32,991 nt of DNA from Planctomycetaceae bacterium (GTDB lineage Bacteria > Planctomycetota > Planctomycetia > Planctomycetales > Planctomycetaceae), in NCBI GenBank assembly GCA_028291565.1, contig JAQGHT010000244.1, positions 1-32,991 on the forward strand. The letters run 5' to 3'. This document shows, piece after piece, positions 444 to 26,444 of this stretch. The translations under genes were made by a program, and so were the position numbers. The notes beneath the pieces were generated by a model, which saw only the letters and a list, made by a program, of their open reading frames with translations, searched no databases and was not told the DNA's origin. Each line of letters opens with the position of its first letter. The stretch's first letter is position 1.

Positions 444-2084
444 CTAATGAGCCGGCTTTACAAATGGCATCTGAATGATTAAATCGTCTTTTCCATCTCC
501 ATATGCCAGTCCCAAGTCGTCCTTTTCATTCTTACCAACACTGTAAAGACGATAGCCGGATGCCGTCTGCTGGTAATGCAGAGGCTGATTGTTGAATAAG
601 TCGTCTGAAATCGCCGGGATGTATTGTGGTGCGAGTTCCGCCAAATTGGCGGGATAGGAATCGTGTTCACTGCGCCAGGCTGCCAAAGCAAAAGCCAGTT
701 CCAGGTTTTGAAATCGCTGACGGACGACATTCTCGCCGCCCATTCTATGAACGACACCGGAAAGAAAGATTGAAACCAATGTGTCCGCGTAATAGCGGGT
801 GGCTTTCGATTTATCGACCAGAATCGACAGTCTGTCGAGGCGTTGTGTTTGAACTCGAAGTTGTTGGATTTCCTGATCCAAGTTTTTCAGCGCGCCTGTT
901 CGTTGTCGATACGTTGGCAGTTGCGCTGCCGAGACACATCGGTCGTACCAGCGATTTCCCGATTTCAGAATTTCATCCCAATCCACCAATCGGATCAATG
1001 CCTGTTCCAGCAGTTTGTCCGCCCAGGTCTGTTCCGGGTTCTCGTGCCAGAAATTCGGCATCTCCGAAAACTCCGCGATCGTCAATTGCCCCCGTGCCAT
1101 ATGCTGGCAACAGTCCAAAAATGTGGCCCGTTCGATGTGGTCCATTTTGTCGGCCATGAGTGATCGCGGCGGAAGGTTTTGGAGTTGCTTCAAATACCGA
1201 GCAATGAACTTTGCGGTGGGACGAGTTTCAGAAAGGAAACGCAATTCCCCGTCAATCGCCATTGTCTCAATTATGAATCCCGTGAATCCTTCGACCGTTG
1301 ATGGCCCGCGGCCCATTAACCGGCCCAGACGGTGAACAGCCTGTAGATCGGACCAGGCTTGAAGTCGTTCGTTTTCGCCAAGCGACAACATGGCTCGTGA
1401 AACAAGGGCCCGCGCAATCGCCCGCCCCACTTGTATTCCTGGCAAGGTGACGAAAAACATCTTGCCTTCCCCTTCTTCCGAGGAGACATAAGGAGAATAA
1501 TATTCGGTCCGTTCGGTCCCCTCGGTGATGCGCCTCAGAGGGATTTCGATGCTGTGCAACCATTCGGCGATCTCAGGAAACTCTTTCGCGGTCCAGGGCC
1601 GTGTCAGAGCCGTCTCCGCCAAATTCTGAAGCGCTGGGAATCCCGCTTCCGGAACGACCTTTCCAGTTCGTTTTCTCCACTCCCCCACAGTTTCAAAGTA
1701 ATCGCCTTCATTGGGAGGCGGTTTGATTCCGAGTAACTGGAAGAACTTGTCAGGTTGAAGATGGTGATCCGGCGCCGGCCCAGTCGCCTGATACAACATG
1801 ACCACGGCATTATTCTCAGGAGTCACACCTTGACTGTAATGCCGATTGGTGACAGACAGATAATCAATGAATCCGCTGGGGCCAATTGGTTCCGTGGCCC
1901 AGGTTGTTTCTTTGCTGATCGTGATTTTGGGAATGAAAACGGGTCTGACGTTCTGAGGCCGCGGCTTCGCCTGCGGTTCGGAGTCCTGTGCCCGGCATAA
2001 CGCAGTCAAACAGAGACTGATGACGCCGAGCAAGCTGACTGCGATCAAGACGCATGGAGAATGACATCTGCATCGATGTGACAT
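444..2084 (-). CDS. Hypothetical exported protein with pseudopilin (GspG)-like C-terminal segment; paralog of 2269..3894
   Basis: ORF 444..2138; the internal Met at 2084 (MSHRCRCHSPCVLIAVSLLGVISLCLTALCRA) gives a better signal peptide. C-terminal LELAFALAAWRSEHDSYPANLAELAPQYIPAISDDLFNNQPLHYQQTASGYRLYSVGKNEKDDLG resembles the C-terminal motif of GspG-like pseudopilins. Confidence 0.85.
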   Translation of the reverse strand: MSHRCRCHSPCVLIAVSLLGVISLCLTALCRAQDSEPQAKPRPQNVRPVFIPKITISKETTWATEPIGPSGFIDYLSVTNRHYSQGVTPENNAVVMLYQATGPAPDHHLQPDKFFQLLGIKPPPNEGDYFETVGEWRKRTGKVVPEAGFPALQNLAETALTRPWTAKEFPEIAEWLHSIEIPLRRITEGTERTEYYSPYVSSEEGEGKMFFVTLPGIQVGRAIARALVSRAMLSLGENERLQAWSDLQAVHRLGRLMGRGPSTVEGFTGFIIETMAIDGELRFLSETRPTAKFIARYLKQLQNLPPRSLMADKMDHIERATFLDCCQHMARGQLTIAEFSEMPNFWHENPEQTWADKLLEQALIRLVDWDEILKSGNRWYDRCVSAAQLPTYRQRTGALKNLDQEIQQLRVQTQRLDRLSILVDKSKATRYYADTLVSIFLSGVVHRMGGENVVRQRFQNLELAFALAAWRSEHDSYPANLAELAPQYIPAISDDLFNNQPLHYQQTASGYRLYSVGKNEKDDLGLAYGDGKDDLIIQMPFVKPAH

Positions 2085-2268
2085 GCTGCATTCCTGCGTC
2101 CACTGGATTACTGAGACTTTCTGAGTCCATTCAAACAAAGCAGGTTCAAGCCGTTATACTGCGCCACCATTTTACTCGACTCGGGCGTGTTGCAAAGGCT
2201 CGTTCACCGCCAGATTGAACTCCGTACGACTTCAGTGGATTTGTCAGCATTCGAAATCTCTCAGGTCA

Positions 2269-3894
2269 TCATTGAGCAGGTTTCGGAAGCGGCATTGGCA
2301 TTTGCACGACGAGATCGTCCTTGCCCATGCCCTCACCGTATGTCAGACCCATGTCGTCCGTTTCATTTTCGCCGAGGCTGTAGAATCGGTAGCCGTCGGG
2401 TATCCGTTCGTAATGCAAGGGCTGCGTTTTGAACAGGTCGCTTGGAACCGTTGCGATATACTTCGGCGCCAGCACTTCCAGTTTCTCTGGATAGGTACCA
2501 TGTTCGTCCCGCCAGGCGGCTAAGGCGAAAGCCAGCTCGAGGTTCTCATACCGCTGCAGGCATCGACTTTCCGCACGGACGCACTGGGTTGTCGCCGGAA
2601 GTAGCAGTGACAGCAAAATGTTCGCGGCAAAGTCGGTCCGACTGGGCTTGCTCTCGAAAACGGACAAGACACCAAAACCTTGAACTTTCGTCCGGAATTG
2701 CCCGAGTTCAACCTCAAGTTTGCGAAGCTCTTCGATCCGCTGATGATACGTCGGCATCCGAGCCCCAGCGACCATCCGGTCAAAACGACGATTTCCTGAT
2801 TTCAGAATTTCGTCCCAGTCTACCGAACTCACCATAATCCGTTCCAAGACCCTGGTCGTCCAGTCATTCGAACCGCCGCCGTCGAGGTTGTTCAACTGCA
2901 TGCGTCCACGTGCGATTTGCTGGCAACAATCCAGGAACATTGCACGTTCGCAATGGTCGATTTTATCGACCACCAGCGCTCGCGGAGGCAAGCTGGCCAG
3001 CTGCTTGACGTAGCGGGCAATGAATTTTTCAGTCGGGCGAGCATCGGAAATGAATCTCAGTTCGGCGTTCATTGCCACACTCTCAATTGCGATTCCAACG
3101 AGGCCTTCAATAATTGTCGGACCGCGACCAACCAAACGCCCCAATCGATGAATGGTCAATAGATCAGACCAAGCCTTTAAACTGTCTTTCTCTGCGAGTC
3201 GCAACATCGCCCGGGACACCAACGCGCGAGCCAGACCACGCGACATCTGCACTCCCGGCAGCAGAACCTCGATCAACTTGCCTTCTTCGTTGTCTGCAGA
3301 AACCATTGGGGAATAGTATTCCGTCCGTTCCACGGCATCCGCGACGAGTCCCAATGGTTTTTCAATACTTTGTAACCATTCGGCAACTTCAGGAAATTCT
3401 TGCACGGTCCAGGGCCTTATTCCTGTTGTTGTGCCCATCTCAAGTACCGCGGCAATTCCGCCCGCAGGGAGTGGCTTTCCTGTTCGTTTGAACCAATTTC
3501 CGAATTCCTCGTAGTACACTCCATTCGCCGGAGGGGGTTCGATCCCTAACAGCCGAAAAAACTCGGCCGGCTGTTCTCGCCCGTCTGGCATCGGTCCCAA
3601 AGCCTGGTACAGCAAAACCACCGCGTTATTCGCAGGTGTCACACCTTGGCTACACTGGCGATTTATCGCGCCTAAATAGTCGACGAATCCGCTCGGCCCG
3701 ACAGGCTCTATCGCCCAGGTCGTTTCTTTGCTGATCGTGATTTTGGGAATGGAAAAGGGCCTTTCTTTCTTGGTAACTTCTTTCTTGGCAGGAGTTGCTG
3801 GCGGCTTCACTTCCTGGGCCAGGCACAGCCCTGCTGCGCACAGACTGATCGCAATCAAAAGGCTGCTGGCATAATTCATCAGGTGACGCGGCAT
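2269..3894 (-). CDS. Hypothetical exported protein with pseudopilin-like C-terminal segment; tandem paralog
   Basis: 541-aa ORF with signal peptide (MPRHLMNYASSLLIAISLCAAGLCLAQ), strongly similar along its length to 444..2138, including NLELAFALAAWRDEHGTYPEKLEVLAPKYI...YRFYSLGENETDDMG. Confidence 0.9.
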   Translation of the reverse strand: MPRHLMNYASSLLIAISLCAAGLCLAQEVKPPATPAKKEVTKKERPFSIPKITISKETTWAIEPVGPSGFVDYLGAINRQCSQGVTPANNAVVLLYQALGPMPDGREQPAEFFRLLGIEPPPANGVYYEEFGNWFKRTGKPLPAGGIAAVLEMGTTTGIRPWTVQEFPEVAEWLQSIEKPLGLVADAVERTEYYSPMVSADNEEGKLIEVLLPGVQMSRGLARALVSRAMLRLAEKDSLKAWSDLLTIHRLGRLVGRGPTIIEGLVGIAIESVAMNAELRFISDARPTEKFIARYVKQLASLPPRALVVDKIDHCERAMFLDCCQQIARGRMQLNNLDGGGSNDWTTRVLERIMVSSVDWDEILKSGNRRFDRMVAGARMPTYHQRIEELRKLEVELGQFRTKVQGFGVLSVFESKPSRTDFAANILLSLLLPATTQCVRAESRCLQRYENLELAFALAAWRDEHGTYPEKLEVLAPKYIATVPSDLFKTQPLHYERIPDGYRFYSLGENETDDMGLTYGEGMGKDDLVVQMPMPLPKPAQ

Positions 3895-4137: not shown

Positions 4138-4208
4138 GGGGTCAGTTGGTTCAAAGTTCATTTTTCGCCATGACATGGCGAAAAATGAACTTTGAACCAA
4201 CTGACCCC
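4138..4208. repeat. 71-bp perfect palindrome (35-bp arms, single central base); member of a dispersed hairpin repeat family
   Basis: GGGGTCAGTTGGTTCAAAGTTCATTTTTCGCCATG-A-CATGGCGAAAAATGAACTTTGAACCAACTGACCCC; arms are exact reverse complements. Shares a core with 25260..25322. Confidence 0.95.
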
Positions 4209-4229: not shown

Positions 4230-4274
4230 AAAGAAAAACAACGCCGGCCAAACCTTGGTTTGACCGGCGTTGTT
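4230..4274 (-). terminator. Intrinsic terminator of the DUF1501 gene
   Basis: Hairpin AACAACGCCGGCCAAACC-TT-GGTTTGACCGGCGTTGTT (4237-4274, one mismatch) just 3' of the minus-strand stop at 4302, followed on the minus strand by a TTTTTCTTT tract. Confidence 0.8.
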
Positions 4275-4301: not shown

Positions 4302-5762
4302 CTAGGACAAGATTCCCAAGACCGCATCGCCCTTCACGAGATCGCGCGGTTGGTTGAGATGGTTGTAAACAATCGTTCGCGGATCGATTCCGACGCTGTG
4401 ATAGATCGTCGCCAACAACTCGGTCGGATGGACTGGAGTTTCGACAGGTGCCGAACCGGTCAGGTCCGACTTGCCGTAAACGAAACCACGTTTGACACCC
4501 GCACCGGCGACGACACACGAATAGCAGTAAGGCCAGTGATCGCGTCCGTCGTCCGAATTGCTGTTGCCAGACGTGCTGACACCTCGTTTGGGGCTGCGGC
4601 CGAATTCGCCCACAGCGATCACAAGGGTCTCTTTCAGCAAGCCGCGCTCGTCGAGATCGGCGATCAGTGCCGACAGGCCTGAATCGAGCATCGGAGCTGA
4701 TTGCTTCTTCATCCGATCCGACAATCCACTGTGCACATCCCAGGAATGGTTGTCGCTATTGGCCACTTTCGGCCAGTTCACTTCGACGAATCGCGTCCCA
4801 GCTTCCACCAGGCGGCGAGCCATTAAACAGCTTTGGCCAAATGTGTTACGACCATAGCGGTCGCGCATTTCCGGAGTTTCTTTCGTCAGATCGAAAGCAT
4901 CCCGAGCCCGACCGGACAACACCAGCCCTAAAGCTTTACCGTAGTATTCGTTCAAGGCGTACTTGGAAACCGCGCGATCAAGCTCCGGCATTCCTGCATT
5001 AATCTGTTCGCGAAGTTTGGCTCGGCGTTCCAATCGCACGTTCGTGACGTCGCCCCGCAATTGCAGGTCGTCCGTTCGCACGCGACTCATCTTGTCCATA
5101 TCCATGTCGTCGCCGGTAGGATACAGATAGTAAGGGTCGTAAGCCCGGCCGAGGAAACCCGCTGTTCCCGCCTTGCCGATCACATTGCTCTCCTGCAAAG
5201 GGCGGGGCAACATGACGAACGGCAACATCGGCTCGTCAATCGGCTTGAGCCGAATGATGTTCGAGCCCACGTTCGGGAAATCATTGGGGCTGGGAGGCTC
5301 CAACTGACCTGATGGGCTGACCTTGTCCGCGGTATAACCGGTCAGCATCTGATAGATGGCAGCCGTGTGGTTGAACAAACCAATCGGCGTATAGCTGACC
5401 GAGCGAATCTGCGTGAACTTGTCATTCACCAGTGCCAGTTTGGGCAGCAATTCCGTGAATTGATAGCCGGGAACTTTGGTGTCGATCGGCTTGAAGACGG
5501 AACGAACATTGTCCGGAACGTCAGTTTTGGGATCCCATAGATCCAGATGGCTTGGTCCACCCTGCAGGTAACACAAGATGACGCTCTTGGCTTTACCGAA
5601 GCCTACGCCGCCGTATTTTCCTTCTTCAGCGGTGGCCTCCTGCATTTGCAGCATGCTGGCCAGGCTGATGCCAAACGCTGCGGAACCACCCACGCGCATC
5701 CATTCGCGACGAGTTACGCCATCACAATTATCTTTACCGACGCCGCCTGGAATCACCAGCAT
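4302..5762 (-). CDS. DUF1501 domain-containing protein (sulfatase-like fold, Tat-type signal)
   Basis: [22 protein letters not shown] twin-Arg-like start; [85 protein letters not shown] are typical DUF1501 blocks. Confidence 0.92.
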
Positions 5763-6188: not shown

Positions 6189-7529
6189 TTACGGAGTTCC
6201 CAGGATTTTCGCCACAGCGGCGGCGAAAAGTGCATTACCAGCCACATTGTAATGGCAGAAGTTGTCAATATACGTCGGCTCATCAACGGCCGAGAATAAT
6301 TGCGTCAGGTCGTAAAACTTCAGGCCTTCGTTTCGGAGTTCCTGGCCCTTTTTGACAAGCAGCGGATAGGCCCTGGTCGCAGTAGCACTATATTTCGACT
6401 CCAGAAATGCTACCGTTTTTTCCTGTTCCGTCATCTGGGGTTTCGACCCTGCGAGGTACTGATTCGGTGGGAGGACGTGGTAATACTGAATGGAATTTGC
6501 CTGACAGAGCAGCCGCATCTGGCGCGAGCACTGCGCCCAGTATTCAACCAGATAATCGAACATTTCCGCATCATCGCGAAAGGTCTGCTTCGGCCCCAGA
6601 ACCTGGTAGCCGGGGCGTTCCAATTGAGCGGCAAGCACCTTCATGTTCCATTCGACCTCTTGTTGAAGATACCGATGGTGCAGGCTCAACCAGAGAAAGT
6701 TGATTGTGGCGGAATCCTGGAAAGGAAGCTGACGATACCATTTGCTGCGAGCACGCCGGCGGGCGATGCTCGAGAGCAATGCCGCTTTCGTTTGCAGGTC
6801 TTGCAGGTTGATCGTGTCGGACAGCCGGGCTCGCCACGCACGCGGATAAGGGGGAAAGACACCACCCAAGGCATTTTCGACGGGGTGCAACGCGGTTTCG
6901 TTGTACCCGTCGATATTCACGAGCACGTCGAATTCGGCACCCAGGGAGAGCAGAAAGGTCAACAGCATTAACTGTTGGGGCTGTTTGAATCCACTCACCG
7001 CCAACCTGACAAGTTCCACCTGTTTTCCCTGAAATCGAGGCTGACGTCTTAATTCTCGCAGAAAAGCGCCCTCGCCGCTGGCGGTCATTTGCCAGCTGAC
7101 CGATCCGCCCGCCACGGCAACAATAATCTTGTCCGGGCTGCGTTTACGAATCGGTGATCCCTCGTCCACAAGTCCAAAGTCATTGGGCTGGAATTCCCGA
7201 CCTTCAAACAGTTCAGGACTGTGAAATCCTGGATTGCGAGTCCAGCCCACATAGGGATGATTGACTTCGCGTGCGTAATCGAGTTTCTCGCTTTCGTAAT
7301 CGGCATCCATCTCACGATTGTGACGAACTTGAGCTACAGTCGCGTAGGTGATCCATTTCAACCCAATGTAACAGACGAGTTCCACGAAACCTGTCAGCAG
7401 ACACAGACACACCAGCGTGAAGCAAAGGCGTTTGGGCCAGGAAATTCGGCGTCGCGAAACGAGAGCTGCGGGCGCTTTGGGGACGATTGTCATGCGAACT
7501 CTCCGAACCGGAAGCAATGAGCAGCCCAA
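6189..7529 (-). CDS. Membrane-anchored SGNH/GDSL-hydrolase-like protein
   Basis: N-terminal TM helix (LCFTLVCLCLLTGFVELVCYIGL), IIVAVAGGSVSW (block I-like), VLVNIDGYNE (block III-like), NFCHYNVAGNALFA (block V-like). True start may be an internal Met such as MTIVPKAP. Confidence 0.75.
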   Translation of the reverse strand: MGCSLLPVRRVRMTIVPKAPAALVSRRRISWPKRLCFTLVCLCLLTGFVELVCYIGLKWITYATVAQVRHNREMDADYESEKLDYAREVNHPYVGWTRNPGFHSPELFEGREFQPNDFGLVDEGSPIRKRSPDKIIVAVAGGSVSWQMTASGEGAFLRELRRQPRFQGKQVELVRLAVSGFKQPQQLMLLTFLLSLGAEFDVLVNIDGYNETALHPVENALGGVFPPYPRAWRARLSDTINLQDLQTKAALLSSIARRRARSKWYRQLPFQDSATINFLWLSLHHRYLQQEVEWNMKVLAAQLERPGYQVLGPKQTFRDDAEMFDYLVEYWAQCSRQMRLLCQANSIQYYHVLPPNQYLAGSKPQMTEQEKTVAFLESKYSATATRAYPLLVKKGQELRNEGLKFYDLTQLFSAVDEPTYIDNFCHYNVAGNALFAAAVAKILGTP

Positions 7530-7728: not shown

Positions 7729-7789
7729 GTAGGACAGGTTTTCAACCTGTCAGTTTTCTGAACACGGACAGGTTGAAAACCTGTCCTAC
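7729..7789. repeat. Nested palindromic repeat (REP/BIME-like): 23-bp perfect inverted repeat whose arms are themselves hairpins
   Basis: GTAGGACAGGTTTTCAACCTGTC (7729-7751) and GACAGGTTGAAAACCTGTCCTAC (7767-7789) are exact reverse complements with a 15-nt spacer; each arm contains GACAGGTT-NNN-AACCTGTC. Confidence 0.93.
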
Positions 7790-25054: not shown

Positions 25055-25259
25055 GATGTCCTTTCCATGTCACTCGATTGAAATGTTTCAGGCCATCACA
25101 GATGACCAGTAATCTGACGCTTTTTGCCGAAATCCCGCTCGTTGGGCGGGAAAGAACGCGAGATTTTACATCAATTCGATGACACTCGCATCTTATGTGT
25201 GATTGGTTTTGAATCTCAAATCTGCGATTTCAGATTTCCAATGAGTTCAGAAAGCGGTA

Positions 25260-25322
25260 TCAGGTGGTTCAAAGTTCATTTTTCGCCCAATGTGGGCGAA
25301 AAATGAACTTTGAACCACCTGA
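25260..25322. repeat. Perfect 30-bp-stem hairpin repeat, second member of the 4138..4208 family
   Basis: TCAGGTGGTTCAAAGTTCATTTTTCGCCCA-ATG-TGGGCGAAAAATGAACTTTGAACCACCTGA; shares GGTTCAAAGTTCATTTTTCGCC with the first copy. Confidence 0.95.
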
Positions 25323-25361
25323 CCCCTGAGTTCGCGGCTTTCTACATGCAGGATTCTGAAA

Positions 25362-26444
25362 ATGCGATACGTTTTCCGTCGGTCTGGAATCGCCGCCTTG
25401 TGTTTTGTGATCCTGTGGATGACGGTCGTCTTGGCGGATAAAGCGGAGATTTCGACGCCTCAATCCGTGGTCGGAGTGGTCGGAAAGGAGCAACCGGACA
25501 AACCTCCGGGATCCACTGATGAACCGGTGTTGGAACGAATATTACAGAACTGGCAACTGGCAAACTCGAAAATCAACCGTATCGATACGAATTTTTCCTA
25601 TCGCCGCTTCGATGCCGAAAACGCAGTTGTTGGACGTGGCAAAGGCAGGTTTTCGATCGATACCACTGGACGTGGAAAGTTCACACTTGGACCTGCGGAA
25701 AACGTATCAGGGCAGTTCATTTTCTTGAGGTCACCAGACGGCAGGAAACTTATTGAATATGAATCCAAACCCGCCGAAGCGTGTCAGTGGCATTGGACGG
25801 GCAAGAACGTGATTTGTGTGGAACAAAACGGTCAATCCTACTACGTGTTTGAACTTCCTCTTGAAGTCCGTCGCGCTCAATACCATCCCTCACACCCTCA
25901 ACCACCGTCGATGCCCGAATCGAGGCCCACGACAACGCACGATCAATATCAAACAGAAACAGTTGAGATCTCAGGGATCGATTCCAGGGCCAGGGCAGTT
26001 GAACGAAAGGCCGCCATGGCTTTGGCTCCAGAGATTAGACGAATTGCCTTTGGTCACTATTTTCGAGTCTCATTTAAGAAAGTGCCGTTAACGCGAGTCT
26101 TCAAGACATGTCGACTCGCCTTATTCGAAGCAGAGATCGCTCGGCCCTTCTTGTTCGCAATGCCATTGATTGAACTCAACTCTCGTTACGAAATCACGCT
26201 GAATGCGCATTCTGACACCGAATTGCATTTGCAGTTCTTATCGAAGCAGCAATTAATGCTCCACAAAAAAGCACTTCTGATACTAACGAGAGATACGTAT
26301 GTCCCCAGGTCCTTACATTTGACTGACTGGAGTGGCGATATTCGTACAGAATATGTTTTCGACAAAATGCGGGTCAACATCCCGCCGGACGAATTCGATC
26401 GCCTCGATTTGCGAGGGTTCTGCAAGCAAACGTCACCGATTTAA
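25362..26444 (+). CDS. TIGR03009-like planctomycete protein (LolA/outer-membrane-lipoprotein-sorting-like fold suspected)
   Basis: Signal peptide (GIAALCFVILWMTVVLA); LERILQNWQLANSKINRIDTNFSYRRFDAENAVVGRGKGRFSIDTTGRGKF, ARPFLFAMPLIELNSRYEI, HLTDWSGDIRTEYVFDKMRVNIPPDEFD resemble TIGR03009. Confidence 0.7.
   Translation: MRYVFRRSGIAALCFVILWMTVVLADKAEISTPQSVVGVVGKEQPDKPPGSTDEPVLERILQNWQLANSKINRIDTNFSYRRFDAENAVVGRGKGRFSIDTTGRGKFTLGPAENVSGQFIFLRSPDGRKLIEYESKPAEACQWHWTGKNVICVEQNGQSYYVFELPLEVRRAQYHPSHPQPPSMPESRPTTTHDQYQTETVEISGIDSRARAVERKAAMALAPEIRRIAFGHYFRVSFKKVPLTRVFKTCRLALFEAEIARPFLFAMPLIELNSRYEITLNAHSDTELHLQFLSKQQLMLHKKALLILTRDTYVPRSLHLTDWSGDIRTEYVFDKMRVNIPPDEFDRLDLRGFCKQTSPI

Follow-up and report, generated by a model that had tools for sequence, protein, structure and literature searches.

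A dispersed family of perfect DNA palindromes in a planctomycete genome: putative non-autonomous repeats of the TIRYT type

Results

The palindromes and their surroundings

The window analysed here is the whole of a stretch of 32,991 nucleotides from a Planctomycetaceae bacterium (GenBank assembly GCA_028291565.1, contig JAQGHT010000244.1) and carries two palindromes, one of them beyond the end of a DUF1501-type gene (Table 1). Orthologues of this gene, 93 % identical in the congeners G030 and G093, have another gene downstream and no copy of the palindrome. A similar terminator hairpin does follow them, and we therefore regard the hairpin between gene and palindrome as DUF1501's own terminator. 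The original prediction had likewise given the gene a separate terminator and had held that the palindrome does not look like one, and on both points it was borne out. Downstream of DUF1501, G093 (locus L184) also has a different hairpin, beginning CCACGGATTAACACAGATGAAACACGGAT, and G030 has none in that intergenic slot. Two adjacent similar genes on the minus strand of the window (444–2138 and 2269–3894, 564 and 541 aa) are apparent tandem paralogues; in their position congeners carry a proC-like gene next to DUF1501.

Table 1. Coordinates of the palindromes and of the neighbouring DUF1501 features in the window
Feature	Position	Strand	Description
Palindromic TIR-type repeat, copy 1	4138..4208	-	71 bp; arms perfect over 35 bp, 1-nt centre
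DUF1501 hairpin (terminator)	4237..4274	-	Not part of the element; marks the edge of shared sequence
DUF1501-type gene	4302..5762	-	486 aa; upstream of copy 1; stop at 4302
Palindromic TIR-type repeat, copy 2	25256..25326	+	71 bp; arms perfect over 30 bp, outermost 4 bp not paired (GGTA)

The perfect palindrome originally described at copy 1 was confirmed, its two arms being exact reverse complements. At copy 2 a perfect hairpin had been placed at 25260–25322, and this stands as the core of a longer homologous element, the first four bases of which have mutated to GGTA and so leave the outermost base pairs unformed. Read 5' to 3' in its own polarity, copy 1 (minus strand) has GC before its opening GGGG and TGAGCTTCG after its closing CCCC, and copy 2 (plus strand) extends from GGTATCAGG to CCTGACCCC, with AAAGC before it and TGAGTTCG after it. 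Copy 2 ends 35 bp before an ATG at 25362 in a divergent promoter region. The end motif GGGGTCAG is present in copy 1 and in most other copies of the family, and one end of copy 2 has mutated to GGTATCAG. The stem is AT-rich internally, and there is no T-run behind either arm of the window copies.

A chance origin of such palindromes is excluded: in 20 base-shuffles of the window the longest inverted repeat measured 7–12 bp, and the number of arms of at least 35 bp expected by chance is about 3e-16. Folded as single-stranded DNA, copies 1 and 2 reach -41.7 and -37.2 kcal/mol, compared with about -8 in shuffles, and folding as RNA gives highly stable structures of -60 and -54 kcal/mol. A search of the window against Rfam gave no family match, and a search of the literature for the end sequence returned only unrelated matches such as primers.

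A dispersed family in the host genome

The host assembly comprises 10.1 Mb in 1263 contigs and is about 85 % complete; all genome-wide counts given here come from pattern searches. With up to three mismatches allowed, the arm pattern found 18 forward and 17 reverse matches, and the reversed control found none. Reading these arm matches and adding the copies on contig C963 and at position 5983 of C849 gave a family occupying at least 22 places, some of them truncated; a weak three-mismatch arm match at C849 4024–4044 was counted as chance. The family had been predicted to have two members with copy 1 as its founder, and neither idea was confirmed, copy 1 being a variant in which GTTGG/CCAAC replaces GGTGG/CCACC of the consensus. 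In this consensus GGGGTCAGGTGGTTCAAAGTTCATTTTTCRCC and its reverse complement enclose a variable centre of about 7 nt, which extends to about 35 nt in the copy on contig C113. A whole-palindrome pattern with an N{20,48} centre, too short to catch the 71-bp form, yielded a 42-bp deletion form and another family. The flanks of the host copies are mutually unrelated, and none of the 15 copies whose surroundings could be read falls within a long ORF, long ORFs serving as a proxy for gene calls. Contig ends are touched by 7 of the 22 copies, compared with 0.06–0.4 expected, an excess which implies that these repeats break the assembly.

Further palindromes of 97–98 bp with GGGGTCRG ends and other cores occur in the host. 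A search for exact ends located 26 places (control, 2), comprising 16 of a family beginning GGGGTCAGGCNCCGCAG, 7 of the family studied here and 3 with other cores. The 16 places make up a second GGGGTCAG-ended family of 97–98 bp (GGGGTCAGGCNCCGCAGAATTCAGAATTGGCGG...), with copies on contigs C106, C218, C247, C252 and others of the host genome, G000 (loci L221–L230), and G083 also carries one of its palindromes. Separately, a GTAG-type REP pair (GTAGGACAGGTTTTCAACCTGTC and its inverse) lies at 7729–7789 of the window, and a host-wide search for its arm, with up to two mismatches, gave 178 matches, 88 forward and 90 reverse, so that a canonical REP family coexists there. On host contig C1119 (L027, 959–1082) a GTAG repeat adjoins a GGGGTCAG palindrome in degenerate form, and the second arm of the GTAG repeat ends early where the palindrome starts, as if truncated by it.

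Paired changes and flank polarity

When 12 host copies were aligned for arm pairing, 94.5 % of cells paired, and changes on both sides were seen at 7 of 32 stem pairs, amounting to 14 cells as compared with 4.8 in shuffles, counts that shared descent can inflate. Sliding the partner position abolished the signal, and copy 1 itself bears one paired change. As the paired changes in both arms show, the arms are maintained perfect over time, and such changes could stem from common ancestry within subfamilies instead of from correction that has happened many times. The original prediction had taken perfect arms to mean either recent mobility or maintenance; upkeep over time finds support here, and recent mobility is not required.

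The flanks are asymmetric both in the host and in a second genome, G129 (see below). Of the 12 host copies, 6 are bordered by GC at one end and by TGA at the opposite end, the GC side also being seen as GGCTTC; in G129 the corresponding bases are GGCT and TGAT, at 10 of 27 copies, a count that excludes the copies at L109 and L113. Both of these (near 94–136 and 7414–7456, respectively) lie near contig ends and have outer flanks that are also reverse complements over at least 12 bp, probably as a result of fold-back assembly joins. From the asymmetry it follows that the two window copies are opposite in polarity, copy 1 being minus and copy 2 plus. The GC and TGA bases may be either part of the element or a preferred target. 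Of the two features expected of a MITE of a DDE transposon, inverted repeats are present, and no common target-site duplication is obvious in the flanks as printed.

A Y1 transposase gene flanked by the same palindrome

On contig C10 of G129, a genome of a different genus, palindromes lie on both sides of a gene for a 344-aa transposase (L070, 4964–6000). Its product matches Y1_Tnp above the curated cut-off (E 2e-7), contains the HFH (HUH) and YVHLNP (Y) motifs and has a DnaA-C-like helix–turn–helix (HTH) at its C-terminus, where the match to Bac_DnaA_C (E 1e-5) falls below the curated cut-off; against NCBIfam REP_Tyr_transpos it scores 60.5 bits, under the 80-bit cut-off. An extra copy of the palindrome interrupts this gene without breaking the reading frame, so that some 33 additional residues separate the catalytic domain from the HTH. 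The insert is specific to G129: the orthologues of G083, G113 and G030, which share about 60 % identity with the G129 protein, are without it, and each is flanked by palindromes of its own that keep GGGGTC[AG] ends and differ in the core. No other single observation points as strongly to movement of the palindrome as this in-frame insert.

The original prediction had invoked a Y1 (RAYT-like) transposase encoded elsewhere, and a gene flanked by the same palindrome does exist in a member of the same family, G129, but none was found in the host assembly, where the best match to the G129 transposase is 26 % identical. Host Y1 genes on contigs C218, C1201, C1072, C1034, C1104, C381 and C1119 were considered as partners and rejected, the family arms being absent from the flanks fetched (up to 1.5 kb). 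As a matching gene is absent from an assembly about 85 % complete, we infer that mobilisation in the host would occur in trans; at this completeness, and with 7 of 22 copies at contig ends, the gene may also simply be missing from the assembly. A sequence search of the PDB gave no relevant relative.

Distribution and syntenic sites

Among 150 genomes of the same family, an exact 19-base core of the palindrome matched only the host, G129 (a Schlesneria-like MAG) and G148 (Planctomycetota SZAS-6), with no match in three congeners; a single Bacteroidales match (L140), having no inverted partner, was discarded as chance. The loci fetched from G129 include 35 two-armed copies, in 65-bp and 99–101-bp forms. 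Identical arms in two genera and none in congeners would be most simply explained by horizontal acquisition, and differential loss could also produce such a pattern.

At two host loci the neighbouring genes could be followed in congeners. The gene order around the C963 copy is shared by G030 and G093, G072 having only the upstream gene on the contig fetched, and those on C797 are syntenic in G030 and G093. In the corresponding gaps the element is absent and other hairpins, once a tRNA-like sequence, are found instead; these are absences at syntenic positions and not base-exact empty sites. A joined-flank search of the congeners gave no precise empty site with unchanged flanks, the intergenic DNA of these genomes being too diverged for flank joins at the base level. 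An outcome of only two copies at conserved positions had been named in advance as speaking against mobility; what was found is a family at 22 or more places that is missing from syntenic congener sites.

Discussion

Taken together, these data describe palindromes of about 65–101 bp with GGGGTCRG ends that form one family scattered over extragenic DNA, and we consider it very probable that they are non-autonomous, TIRYT-dependent palindromic repeats, probably derived from another genus, whose arms owe their perfection to recent spread together with template-switch correction. We infer that a TIRYT moves the palindrome, and the host hairpin probably depends on a transposase of the G129 type. In the mechanism we envisage, the transposase would recognise the folded single strand, the GC and TGA flanks marking the strand to be cut, and would cut at the foot of the hairpin and paste a copy elsewhere, mostly into intergenic DNA. 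The host lineage probably gained the family from another genus, and its patchy spread (two other genomes in a sample of 150 and none of three congeners) fits horizontal acquisition. The perfect arms may be due in part to the youth of the copies and in part to template switching during replication, by which one arm would be copied onto the other. The mechanism originally proposed is therefore largely supported: the element appears to be a dispersed, non-autonomous, extragenic and mobile palindrome as predicted, yet not a canonical REP but a TIR repeat of the TIRYT type with GGGG[AT][CG]A[CG] ends. A bolder proposal, which we think quite unlikely, is that the in-frame palindrome has a function within the G129 transposase gene, such as that of a linker or of a self-regulating site through which the enzyme would bind its own gene or mRNA, and that, combined with flanks that mark the strand and arms corrected by template switching, it would make up a self-limiting mobile hairpin system passing between planctomycete genera.

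Other readings of the data are less probable. The palindrome might be immobile and serve structure or regulation, having been amplified as a bidirectional transcription terminator or as a hairpin that affects mRNA stability, as its extragenic position at every readable host site and the great stability of the RNA hairpins would suggest. However, DUF1501 already ends in a separate terminator that congeners share, copy 2 lies in a divergent promoter region 35 bp ahead of a start codon, the stem lacks both the GC-rich composition and the following T-run of an intrinsic terminator at a gene end, Rfam offers no match for the window, and in G129 these arms are found both around and inside a transposase gene; we therefore hold a static role to be quite improbable. 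Membership of the canonical GTAG-type REP/REPIN families moved by group 2/3 RAYTs would likewise account for a short, extragenic palindrome tied to a Y1 transposase, and a true GTAG repeat with its many genomic arm matches does lie in the same window. That membership is refuted by the absence of GT[AG]G 5' of the hairpin foot, where the flanks are instead GC or GGCTTC and TGA; moreover, the arms form one long palindrome rather than two hairpins, the transposase has an HTH typical of subclass 2.1 and a REP_Tyr_transpos score below the cut-off, and the repeats around its orthologues end in GGGG, so that we regard a GTAG-type origin as very improbable. Fold-back joining at contig ends could in principle create palindromes during assembly, and many copies do lie at contig ends, with fold-back-like complementary flanks at L109 and L113 in G129, but the window copies are internal to a 33-kb contig and have unrelated flanks, and the same sequence occurs in three independently assembled genomes. 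An assembly artefact is accordingly hardly credible. The reading that we prefer remains that of a TIRYT-dependent mobile repeat.

The TIRYT repeats have been little followed up, the term occurring in only two papers of the literature searched. The pairing of enzyme and repeat in planctomycetes is now clear, with several orthologous enzymes each accompanied by its own flanking palindrome variants, and such pairs make recognition of a GGGG-ended hairpin by a Y1 enzyme testable through repeat swaps. The paired changes in the arms also provide a natural data set on the persistence of perfect long DNA palindromes.

The system to which the family is closest is that of the TIRtron/TIRYT repeats, described by Di Nocera et al. 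(2013; PMC3733652) with the end motif GGGGWSAS, i.e. GGGG[AT][CG]A[CG], whose transposases are mainly assigned to TnpA-REP subclass 2.1 (PMC6006769). Shared features are a Y1/HUH transposase with a C-terminal Bac_DnaA_C-like HTH, flanking inverted repeats with these ends, and moderately abundant dispersed families in which some repeats are self-complementary (PMC3733652). The examples in the available part of that paper are mostly from Acidobacteria, Pseudomonas and Stenotrophomonas, and not from planctomycetes (PMC3733652), and the accessible sections of the TIRYT papers contain no demonstration that a TIRYT moves its own repeats (PMC3733652, PMC6006769). The present family has the same ends and is dispersed and moderately abundant (at least 22 places in the host, 35 copies in G129), and in G129 there is a repeat-flanked Y1 gene with HUH, Y and HTH elements. 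It differs in that the arms are joined as one long perfect palindrome, in 65–73-bp and 97–101-bp forms, in that one copy lies in frame in its own transposase gene, and in the documentation of paired changes and asymmetric flanks. Like REP/BIME elements and REPINs with their RAYTs, these are short, dispersed palindromes dependent, as we suppose, on a Y1 transposase and extragenic save for the in-gene copy of G129, but they have no GTAG foot, are longer, form a single long hairpin and go with a different transposase subclass (PMC2817692, PMC3116915, PMC3686654). Template switching, which in the part of the source available accounts for long perfect stems and compensatory changes with no need of selection at each base, was described there for RNA hairpins and is proposed here for a mobile DNA palindrome (PMC8794818). 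Judged on its ends, arms and associated transposase, then, our palindrome is best classed as a putative non-autonomous repeat of the TIRYT/TIRtron kind and not as a canonical GTAG REP. Rickettsia palindromic elements are palindromic repeats that lie in frame within protein-coding genes; the present family may be compared with them in this respect, with a single in-gene case, in the element's own transposase. The family is a further example of a repeat kind already described rather than a new kind of system.
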